Positions 35,259 through 52,685 of a stretch of DNA of 64,000 nucleotides are shown here, piece after piece (the stretch's first letter is position 1; every line of letters starts with the position of its first letter). The notes beneath the pieces are model-generated. The model saw only the letters and a list, made by a program, of their open reading frames with translations, made no database searches and was not told where the DNA came from. A program made the position numbers and the translations under genes. The DNA is from Bhargavaea cecembensis (lineage in GTDB: Bacteria > Bacillota > Bacilli > Bacillales_A > Planococcaceae). Where the stretch lies: contig NZ_LN651372.1 of assembly GCF_000826125.2 (NCBI RefSeq), positions 489,547 to 553,546 on the forward strand, given 5' to 3'.

Positions 35259-35342
35259 TCTTAACATTCAAAGCGATTTGCTTAACATTCGGGACGTCTT
35301 TCTTAACATACAGACCGTTTTGCTTAACATTCGCCGTTCCGC
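35259..35342. repeat. 21-bp tandem array next to phoU (4 units)
   Basis: TTAACATTC (one unit TTAACATAC) occurs at 35261, 35282, 35303 and 35324, exactly 21 bp apart, with variable sequence between. The array ends within a few bases of the phoU stop codon and occupies the gap before the ABC ATPase gene. The cores resemble PhoP half-sites (TTAACA), but the 21-bp spacing and position behind phoU do not fit a promoter. Confidence 0.88.
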
Positions 35343-41166: not shown

Positions 41167-41206
41167 TTGGATGGAGCGAAATTCAGGCCGCTTTCCTTGG
41201 GATCTC

Positions 41207-41316
41207 TATAAAAGCAATGCTTCTGAGGATAAAGATAACGCTCGCTCTGATAAAAGCAACGCTTCGCCGGATAAAGATAACGCTATTGCGGATAAAGGCA
41301 ACGCTTCGCTCTGGTG
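41207..41316. repeat. 21-bp tandem array (5 units) before the ECF gene
   Basis: ATAAA cores start at 41208, 41229, 41250, 41271 and 41292, exactly 21 bp apart. Odd units read ATAAAAGCAACGCTTCGC-like and even units ATAAAGATAACGCT-like, so there is a weak two-unit pattern. In one frame it reads as heptapeptides (DKSNASP DKDNAIA), an effect of the period being divisible by three. Confidence 0.9.
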
Positions 41317-41526: not shown

Positions 41527-42069
41527 ATGCAGAAAGCTCAAAGCATCCCGTCTTCTCCACGGGTGAAGACGCTCGACCTCATCATCTCCGCCATGCTCGT
41601 TGCCCTTGTCTTCGTGGCAACCATTTTCCTGAACATCAAGCTGCCGATCACCGCAAACGGCGGGCTTGTCCATCTCGGCACGGCGATGCTGTTCATCTCG
41701 TCCATGCTGTTCGGACCGAAGAAGGGTGCCATCGCCGGTGCGGTCGGAATGGGACTGTTCGATCTCATTTCAGGATGGACTTTGTGGGCGCCGTTCACTC
41801 TCCTCACACGCGGGCTCCAGGGATACATCGTCGGCAAGATCGCCTGGTCGGGCGGCCGAAAAGGCAGCAGTCCGGTGTTCAACCTGATCGCCGCCGTCGT
41901 GTCTGTTCCGTTCATGCTGGGCGGCTATTATCTTTGCGAAGGCATCCTGTTCAGCAACTGGATCATCCCGGCGGCCTCGATCCCGGGGAATATCACCCAA
42001 AACGTCGTCGGCCTCATCGTCGCGATCCCAGTCTGCATTGCCCTGAAGAAAACGCCGCTGTTCAAGTGA
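41527..42069 (+). CDS. ECF transporter S component, substrate unknown
   Basis: A 180-residue membrane protein with five to six helices. After a short polar N terminus it reads VKTLDLIISAMLVALVFVAT, then GGLVHLGTAMLFISSMLFGP and KKGAIAGAVGMGLFDLISGW, typical of vitamin-specific S components of energy-coupling factor transporters. The shared EcfAA'T energising module is not in the window. I chose the ATG at 41527 with AAGG nine bases upstream; a longer frame starts inside the SDR remnant. The gene is bracketed by two repeat arrays. No riboswitch was seen to tell the vitamin. Confidence 0.87.
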   Translation: MQKAQSIPSSPRVKTLDLIISAMLVALVFVATIFLNIKLPITANGGLVHLGTAMLFISSMLFGPKKGAIAGAVGMGLFDLISGWTLWAPFTLLTRGLQGYIVGKIAWSGGRKGSSPVFNLIAAVVSVPFMLGGYYLCEGILFSNWIIPAASIPGNITQNVVGLIVAIPVCIALKKTPLFK

Positions 42070-42073
42070 AAAC

Positions 42074-42120
42074 AGGCGCTCCGGAGAGCAGGCGAAAACC
42101 GCACTCCGGAACGCCTTTTT
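42074..42120 (+). terminator. Terminator after the ECF S component gene
   Basis: AGGCGCTCCGGAG pairs with CTCCGGAACGCCT (one mismatch) and is followed by TTTTTG. Confidence 0.87.
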
Positions 42121-42133
42121 GATTAAATTGCAA

Positions 42134-42566
42134 CATAGGGCACCGATTTAAAGTATGGAGGCCGGAATTACAATATGGAGCTCCGATTTAAAATATAGAA
42201 CCTAGAATTACAATATGGACCTCTGATTTAAAATATGGAAGCCGGATTTACAATATGGAACACCGATTTAAAATATAGAACCTAAAATTACAATATGGAA
42301 CTCCGATTTAAAGTATGGAACCTAGAATTGCAATATGGAGCTCCGATTTAAAATATGGAACCTAGAATTACAATATGGAGCTCCGATTTAAAATATAGAA
42401 CTTAGAATTGCAATATGGAGCTCCGATTTAAAGTATGGAACCTAAAATTACAATATGGAGCTCCGATTTAAAATATGGAACTTAGAATTACAATATGGAG
42501 CTCCGATTTAAAATATGGAGCTTAAAATTCCAACATGGAGCTTCAATTTGAAATATGGAACTGCCC
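42134..42566. repeat. 20-bp tandem array, two alternating unit types (about 21 units)
   Basis: TATGGA or TATAGA recurs every 20 bp from 42154 to 42554 without a single phase slip. Two unit types mostly alternate, giving a 40-bp higher period: type A TATGGAGCTCCGATTTAAAA, which contains the palindrome GGAGCTCC, and type B TATGGAACCTAGAATTACAA. Units differ at only a few positions. It fills the gap between two facing terminators (ECF gene and mqo), is strikingly AT-rich for this genome, and contains no gene. Confidence 0.95.
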
Positions 42567-42616: not shown

Positions 42617-42657
42617 AAAAAAGGAGAAAGGCCCCCAAAACGGGCCTTTCTCCTTTT
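42617..42657. terminator. Terminator at the 3' end of mqo
   Basis: AAAAAGGAGAAAGGCCC pairs perfectly with GGGCCTTTCTCCTTTT; symmetrical, so active on both strands. Confidence 0.92.
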
Positions 42658-42665
42658 ACTTTTAA

Positions 42666-44174
42666 TTAATTATGCACGGCTTCGTCGTTTTTCTTGTTGA
42701 GTTCAAGCGACTCGGAGGTGGCGGCGAAGATTTCGCGGAAGAGGTCCGGGTTGTCGGCGAGCGAAATGCCGTAGGACGGAACCATTTCCTTGATCTTCGG
42801 CTCCCACTCTTCCATGCGTTCAGGGAAGCACTTGTTGAAGATTTCGAGCATGACGTGAACGGCCGTGGAGGCACCCGGCGATGCGCCGAGGAGGGCCGCG
42901 ACCGATCCGTTGGCGCCGGTGACGATTTCCGTGCCGAATTGGAGCGTGCCCTTGCCACCGGCTTCGGTGTCCTTAATGACCTGGACGCGCTGGCCTGCAA
43001 CGACGACGCTCCAGTCTTCGAGCTTCGCGGTCGGGATGAATTCGCGCATCTCTTCAACGCGTTTTTCATTCGACAGCATGAGCTGTTCGACCAGGTACTT
43101 CGTGAGCTTCATTTCCTTCGCGCCCGCCGCGAGCATCGTGAAGACGTTGTTCGGCTTCACGGACGTGATGAGGTCCATGTAGGAGCCCGTCTTCAGGAAC
43201 TTCGGCGAGAAGCCCGCAAACGGACCGAACAGGAGCGATTTCTTGCCGTCGATAAAGCGGGTGTCGAGGTGAGGCACCGACATCGGCGGAGCGCCGACCT
43301 TCGCCTTGCCGTATACTTTGGCGTTATGCTCCTCGATCACATTCGGATCGTTGCAGACGAGGAACAGGCCGCTGACCGGGAATCCGCCGATATGCTTCGA
43401 CTCCGGAATGCCGGTCTTCTGGAGCAGGTGGAGACTTCCGCCGCCGGCTCCGATGAACACGAACTTCGCCGTATGTGTTTCGAGCCTGTTGCCGTCGAGG
43501 TCCCGGACCTTCACTTCCCAGGAACCTTCAGGCGTCTGCTTCAGGTCATCGACGGAGTGGCGGTAGTTCAGCTCCACTCCCTCGTTTTCCAAGTGGTCAA
43601 ACAGAATCCTCGTAAGAGCGCCGAAGTTGACGTCCGTTCCGGAATCAATCTTCGTTGCCGCAATCGGCTCGTCCGGATTCCGGCCTTCCATCATGAGGGG
43701 AATCCATTGCTTGAGCTGCTCCGGATCTTCGGAGAACTCCATGCCTTCAAAGAGCGGATGATCTTTCAGGACCTCATGGCGCTTCTTCAGGAAGTTGATA
43801 TCATCCCGGCCCTCGACAAAGCTCATGTGGGGGAGGGGCATGATGAACTCATGCGGGTTCTGGATCAGGTTCCGGTCGACCAAGTACGACCAGAACTGGC
43901 GGGACAGCTGGAACTGCTCGTTGACCTTGACGGCCTTTGTGATGTCGAGCGTGCCGTCCGCCTTTTCAGGTGTATAGTTCAGTTCGCACAGGGCGGAGTG
44001 GCCCGTGCCCGCGTTGTTCCATTCATTCGAGCTTTCTACGCCCGGCTCCGCCAGCTTCTCGAACACTTTGATTTCCCATTCGGGTGCCAGTTCCTTCAGC
44101 ATCGAACCCAGCGTGGCACTCATGATTCCTGCACCGATTAAGATCACATCTGTCTTCTTGTTTATGCTGCTCAT
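42666..44174 (-). CDS. mqo: Malate:quinone oxidoreductase
   Basis: A 502-residue peripheral membrane FAD enzyme that oxidises malate and passes electrons to menaquinone. It has the FAD motif [18 protein letters not shown] at residue 9, the Mqo signature [20 protein letters not shown] and [20 protein letters not shown], and the C-terminal [18 protein letters not shown]. Length and start are normal. It converges on the ECF S component gene across the 20-bp array. Confidence 0.96.
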
Positions 44175-52215: not shown

Positions 52216-52499
52216 GTAATTTTACTTCCCTTCTCCACATGGGATCGTTCTACGAATCCTTTATTCTTCCTATGCTATCATGACTTGCCCTGTTCCGCAC
52301 CTGCCCGCCGTCACGAAGAAGACAGGGAAATATCCCCGCTGTTTATTTCCCGGGCAATATTCATCATTTCCCGCCTTATTTCCCGGTATTTCTGCATGGA
52401 AGAGCGGGATTTCCCGACAGGAACTGCGGAGTGATTAGAGAGGGTTGCAGAGAGGGGATTGCAGTTTCGAGTCTGTGCTGTGTCTTTTTGTGGAGATCA

Positions 52500-52685
52500 T
52501 TAACGTTTCGGCTAAGTAAATTAACGTTTTGCCTTAGCAAATTAACGTTTCAACTTAGCAAATTAACGTTTCACCTTAGCAAATTAACGTCTCAGCTTAG
52601 CAAATTAACGTTTCACCTTAGATACACAACGTTTCAGCCCAGATAAACAACGTTCCGCTTCAGATACGCAACGTTTCGCCCCTCA
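52500..52685. repeat. 21-bp tandem array between walR and the M23 hydrolase gene (9 units)
   Basis: AACG(T/C) cores start at 52502, 52523, 52544, 52565, 52586, 52607, 52628, 52649 and 52670, exactly 21 bp apart. The first six units read TTAACGTTTCACCTTAGCAAA with small changes; the last three switch to an ACAACGTTTC type with GATA in place of TTAG. The array starts next to the M23 gene terminator and ends well upstream of walR. The remaining part of the gap (52216-52499) shows nothing I can assign. Confidence 0.93.

Follow-up and report, generated by a model that had tools for sequence, protein, structure and literature searches.

A 20-bp repeat array with two alternating cores, one of a dispersed family in Bhargavaea cecembensis

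The array and its flanking genes

The window analysed here, a stretch of 64,000 nucleotides of the Bhargavaea cecembensis genome (G000), contains an array of 20-bp direct repeats in the gap between two convergent genes (Table 1). Each gene ends in an intrinsic terminator that faces the array, and none of comparable kind was found in shuffled gaps. This bears out the location between two facing terminators that had been described from the letters alone.

Table 1. Features at the array locus, in window coordinates
Feature	Position	Strand	Remarks
Small membrane protein gene, ECF-transporter substrate-binding-like	41528..42069	+	Name from sequence; convergent on array
Intrinsic terminator of upstream gene	42076..42123	+	Faces array; hairpin -25.5 kcal/mol, then T run
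20-bp direct-repeat array	~42130..42566	+	22 cores; types A and B alternate, which gives a higher-order unit of 40 bp
One 40-bp array period	42174..42213	+	TATGGAGCTCCGATTTAAAA + TATAGAACCTAGAATTACAA; partition from comparison of 22 loci
Intrinsic terminator of downstream gene	42619..42657	-	Faces array; -27.2 kcal/mol; terminator-like on both strands
Malate:quinone oxidoreductase-like (mqo-like) gene	42666..44174	-	Name from sequence; convergent on array

The array unit consists of a core of ~13 nt (A, ATTTRAAATATGG; B, AWTTACAATATGG) and a linker of ~7 nt. The period given in Table 1 runs from the end of a B core through a linker, the A core ATTTAAAATATAG and a second linker to the start of the next B core (AATTACAATATGG). 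All 21 intervals between the 22 cores are exactly 20 bp, in agreement with the sequence-only reading, which had counted about 21 units in phase without a slip. Its alternation of two unit types with a 40-bp higher order is likewise seen, both in the order of the cores (bABABABABAbABAbABABA.A) and in the TRF call (42143-42561, period 40, 10.5 copies, 87% match, score 607). The array stands at the place that had been proposed, with a start a few bases earlier than 42134, and it is indeed far AT-richer than its surroundings (33.6% GC versus 58.0% for the window, whose lowest-GC 437-bp stretch starts at 42117). The palindrome GGAGCTCC, which had been taken as the mark of one unit type, is present but occurs in exactly six copies and so covers only part of that type. 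The types are better told apart by their cores (TTRAAATATGG versus TTACAATATGG) than by this linker, as other loci show the same difference between cores but not this linker. Promoter matches inside the array are produced by the 20-bp period, which pairs TTTACA-like with TAAAAT-like letters, and were rejected. Intrinsic curvature of the array gave no consistent signal (z -1.9 to 2.3).

Dispersal, constraint and turnover

A period of 20 or 21, or a multiple of it, is seen in 55 of the 65 unique intergenic arrays of an N-free 452-kb sample, which comprised the window and 20 stretches spaced evenly (~122 such arrays per Mb, 1.8% of the sequence). The G000 genome holds hundreds of such spacer arrays in several core families; the array had been seen as a single one, but it is a member of a dispersed family among these hundreds. 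Period-21 arrays fall mostly in a few core families with a similar split into core and linker, the largest cluster lumping several sub-cores. With N runs excluded, the autocorrelation of intergenic DNA has its peak at lag 21 rather than at 18 or 24, and this lag is the top or joint top in the intergenic DNA of G000, of one congener (G003), of pooled congeners and of pooled other genera. The window itself holds four more 21-bp arrays between genes, whose cores belong to other families (1729-1814, 35260-35332, 41204-41311 and 52499-52681).

The family of the window array, F1, has 13 loci in G000 and 10 in G003. BLASTN with the array returned the further loci in G000, a second set in G003 and traces in G002 and G007, with short weak matches only in the other genomes. 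A scan for the 20-bp F1 pattern gave 186 unit pairs in G000, 52 in G003 and 3 in G002, and none in the remaining 118 of the 121 genomes of the bacterial family. F1 is restricted to the genus. Among the matches listed (100 of 127), no core is solitary and all sit in arrays. The two core types, joined in G003 by TTGCAATATGG, alternate at nearly all F1 loci of both genomes despite unrelated linkers, strict alternation being broken at L013, L020, L023 and L028. Linkers are locus-specific yet partly homogenised inside a locus, which points to local expansion of the arrays, most likely in steps of one 40-bp dimer; the proposal that expansion copied A-B pairs fits these data. At the composite loci L013, L014, L016, L019 and L020, a block with an AATATGG core adjoins a block with the core TTTGCAATTAG or its variants, both with a 20-bp period. 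In the draft G002 assembly, the arrays at L031, L032 and L038 coincide with contig ends or starts, and fragmented drafts therefore probably undercount arrays.

Gaps with 20/21-bp arrays are enriched for convergent gene pairs (14/39, versus 25/187 among other gaps; p=0.0018) and depleted of divergent ones (2/39 versus 40/187; p=0.02). Of the 32 gene ends that face an F1 array, 26 have a terminator ahead of it. Orientation is unbiased with respect to co-directional genes (13 same and 12 opposite when every family of the sample is counted; 6 same and 4 opposite for F1) and with respect to replication (7 same and 6 opposite over the 13 G000 F1 loci, tallied by hand). Terminators before the arrays, together with unbiased orientation, argue against RNA-level and polar functions. 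The idea of a polar transcription or replication barrier is thus not upheld by the counts, and those for replication speak against a polar replication-fork barrier.

The anatomy of the unit was compared over 474 intervals at 22 loci from G000 and G003. Spacing is exactly 20 in 458 of these intervals, with linkers freely variable. The ~13 first positions of the unit are nearly invariant between loci and the ~7 last are mostly near-random; most core positions are 95-100% conserved, three being lower, and most linker positions 33-77%. The variable core positions are the pair that separates A from B, position 7 in A and position 2 in B. Two orthologous pairs carry an array at the same place in both genomes, on the oppF side (L015/L021) and at serS-tadA (L020/L026). 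Their array consensuses are identical at 50 of 52 core positions and 13 of 28 linker positions (p=5e-7), and the four-fold degenerate sites of the flanking genes are 63% identical. Cores are far more conserved than silent sites and linkers are not. Since gene conversion between loci would have evened out the linkers as well, we read this as selection or as the mark of an enzyme that reads the core.

The ECF-like/mqo-like gene pair is syntenic in all seven congeners, and the window array is absent from the site in every one of them. Six have only a short gap there and G003 has an unrelated 21-bp array with the core GAATRGNNNGAAA, which sits before a terminator. An identical array in relatives, which the sequence-only reading had regarded as the sign of a fixed element, did not occur. 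The G003 counterparts of twelve G000 F1 loci were assessed, L018 from a single flank and with L019 left out; F1 or F1-like arrays stand at 4, unrelated arrays at 2 and no 20/21-bp array at 6. Arrays at these orthologous sites exceed those in random gaps (6/12 versus 7/95, p=0.0006), an excess that comes mostly from shared ancestry; the two unrelated arrays alone do not differ significantly from random gaps (p=0.14). Among the six without a 20/21-bp array, the G003 counterpart of L010 (L134, 338-799) has ~120-bp repeats in its place.

Competing explanations

The reading that we favour, with about even confidence, is that the array is a helically phased set of binding sites that acts at the DNA level, is read by a putative protein and turns over like a satellite. 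A core with a direction, a linker free to vary, a phase of two turns, the alternation of two cores and occurrence in arrays only together fit phased protein docking. The ~22 directly repeated candidate sites would share one face of the double helix and occupy an untranscribed spacer flanked by the two terminators, with the ~13-nt core read in sequence and the ~7-nt linker only setting the spacing of about two helical turns. As the two core variants alternate, the repeating and duplicating unit would be the 40-bp A-B pair. A putative DNA-binding protein may dock on successive cores and assemble side by side, in the manner of ParR at parC or Rep at iterons, and the docked assembly could form a local nucleoprotein block for nucleoid organisation or for insulation between convergent genes. 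Arrays would grow by duplication of A-B pairs, and would arise and vanish at gene 3' ends as satellites do. We infer the docking protein, docking on one face and any host benefit. Arrays are missing at about half of the orthologous G003 sites tested and therefore none is essential. Several points sit less easily with a binding array. The genome has several unrelated core families, which would call for more than one protein or for a reader with loose specificity; two turns of 10.5 bp do not come to exactly 20 bp; and the core itself is altered at two orthologous G003 sites. Core conservation between loci could also stem in part from dispersal later than the changes in the linkers, a possibility that the orthologous pairs speak against.

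The main rival is a satellite without host function, which arises by tandem duplication, spreads by ectopic recombination and survives where it is harmless, between terminators, with period and core as by-products of amplification. We consider it a serious explanation but a rather improbable one. It is in line with the rapid turnover, seen at the window site in all seven congeners and at five other G000 sites without an array in G003, with the avoidance of divergent (promoter) gaps, and with the existence of several core families, of which F1 is genus-restricted. It leaves unexplained, however, why conserved cores lie beside saturated linkers, why unrelated families in several genera keep to a period of 20/21, and why the spacing has changed so rarely when linkers have changed so often. 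Between the protein-binding element and the neutral satellite that had been offered side by side for this array, the binding element, with a putative protein, is therefore the better fit, since a plain satellite does not account for the core/linker contrast or the fixed period.

Constraint could also come from an enzyme dedicated to amplifying or dispersing the arrays, one that recognises the core and measures off 20-21 bp; the arrays would then be selfish rather than beneficial to the host. Such an enzyme would account for the constrained core, the fixed ruler, the dispersal, the species-specific families and the confinement of the listed cores to arrays. A search of G000 and G003 for a Y1 transposase, a Nop domain or a reverse transcriptase, however, returned no candidate, and we regard this explanation as unlikely. 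Dispersal by reverse transcriptase in particular was rejected on the absence of such a gene from both genomes.

More broadly, and tentatively, a dedicated chromosomal system may read the alternating pair of ~13-nt cores with a 20-bp ruler and build or spread two-part phased arrays between genes. It could be a nucleoid-organising, polymerising DNA-binding protein at gene ends or a new amplification enzyme, and the same principle with other cores could lie behind the hundreds of 20/21-bp arrays.

We find it very improbable that the arrays act as RNA, as small RNAs or protein sponges produced by read-through, which has been proposed for related Bacillus repeats. In its favour, B. coagulans has repeats of 52 nt that are found in RNA-seq (PMC8161180, PMC8625621), the fold of the window array is slightly better than that of shuffled sequences (z -2.1 and -2.5), and the unrelated G003 array at the orthologous site precedes its terminator. 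Against this stand the terminators ahead of most F1 arrays and the random orientation to genes. The fold, moreover, is partly due to the palindromic GGAGCTCC linker, from which the consensus linker of other loci differs, and an Rfam search with the array gave no match.

An assembly artefact is scarcely credible: the G000 assembly does have N runs and single-N joins with duplicated flanks, but the window is free of N, and F1 occurs at many loci of an independent assembly, that of a congener, whose stretches that were read contain no N. Elsewhere in the G000 assembly, duplicated segments of ~1 kb flank a single N at L051 (9112-11028, exact over 958 bp), L019 (near 4132), L052 (near 6269), L053 (near 1881) and L057 (near 15894), and longer N runs also occur. 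These are likely scaffold joins with unmerged overlaps, which possibly cause the 6.7% contamination value of the assembly. Exact duplications around some G000 arrays coincide with such joins.

Relation to known repeat systems

The window array matches a published class of bacterial tandem repeats of constant size, 20-21 nt. Such repeats with "constant size, variable sequence" were described in Bacillus (Subirana and Messeguer, 2021; PMC8161180), and the authors found no function and proposed either a protein that polymerises on DNA or a small RNA. As in that report, the period is constant at 20-21 nt, each genome has several sequence families, and the repeats are non-coding and species-specific, with a short conserved signal in their units. 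Here the period is 20/21 with family sequences that vary, and F1 is intergenic and restricted to the genus. Unlike the published repeats, the conserved part here is ~13 nt with a defined linker, and two cores alternate over 40 bp. The alternation, the location between terminators and the comparison of orthologous sites do not appear in the available text of that report.

STAR elements of Staphylococcus offer a second comparison. By the available text of PMC3532100, they share with the present arrays intergenic, species-specific locations, locus-specific spacers, expansion and contraction and the lack of an assigned function, and have a 14-bp motif. Their motifs, in contrast, are GC-rich and ~50 nt apart, and neither a two-turn phase nor two alternating cores appears in that text. 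The core here (AWTTNNAATATGG, at 20-bp spacing) differs from the STAR consensus given there, T(G/A/T)TGTTG(G/T)GGCCC(C/A), whose copies are separated by 40 bp or more, and membership was rejected. ParR of plasmid pSK41 binds 20-bp repeats (PMC9426499). The ParR-parC sites and replication iterons are direct repeats bound in series, an architecture with which the present arrays are compatible. Those systems occupy a single plasmid locus beside their own gene, whereas here there are many chromosomal arrays and no linked gene was found.

TIGR-Tas arrays combine two alternating repeat elements with variable spacers. The linkers here differ in their length of just ~7 nt and in their partial homogenisation inside each array, and the Nop domain PF01798, which a Tas protein would carry, is absent from all eight genus genomes, so that TIGR-Tas membership was rejected. 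The Y1 (TnpA_REP) transposase PF01797 is likewise absent from all eight, which speaks against REP/RAYT membership.

Constant-size 20-21-nt repeats have been described as enigmatic. Their density in G000, ~97/Mb for arrays of at least 80 bp, is far above that of the Bacillus species tabulated in PMC8161180 (29 per 4.36 Mb in the richest among the 21-nt-rich examples of its Table 4), under search criteria that differ. The core/linker split and the alternation across loci and species make the 40-bp A-B dimer a concrete bait, with core, linker and spacing mutants as clean controls, so that the function of these repeats becomes directly testable. Arrays with periods of 50, 71 (21+50) and 92 (42+50) occur at L057, L059, L060, L061, L063 and L069, and may represent a mixed unit akin to the 52-nt class already published.
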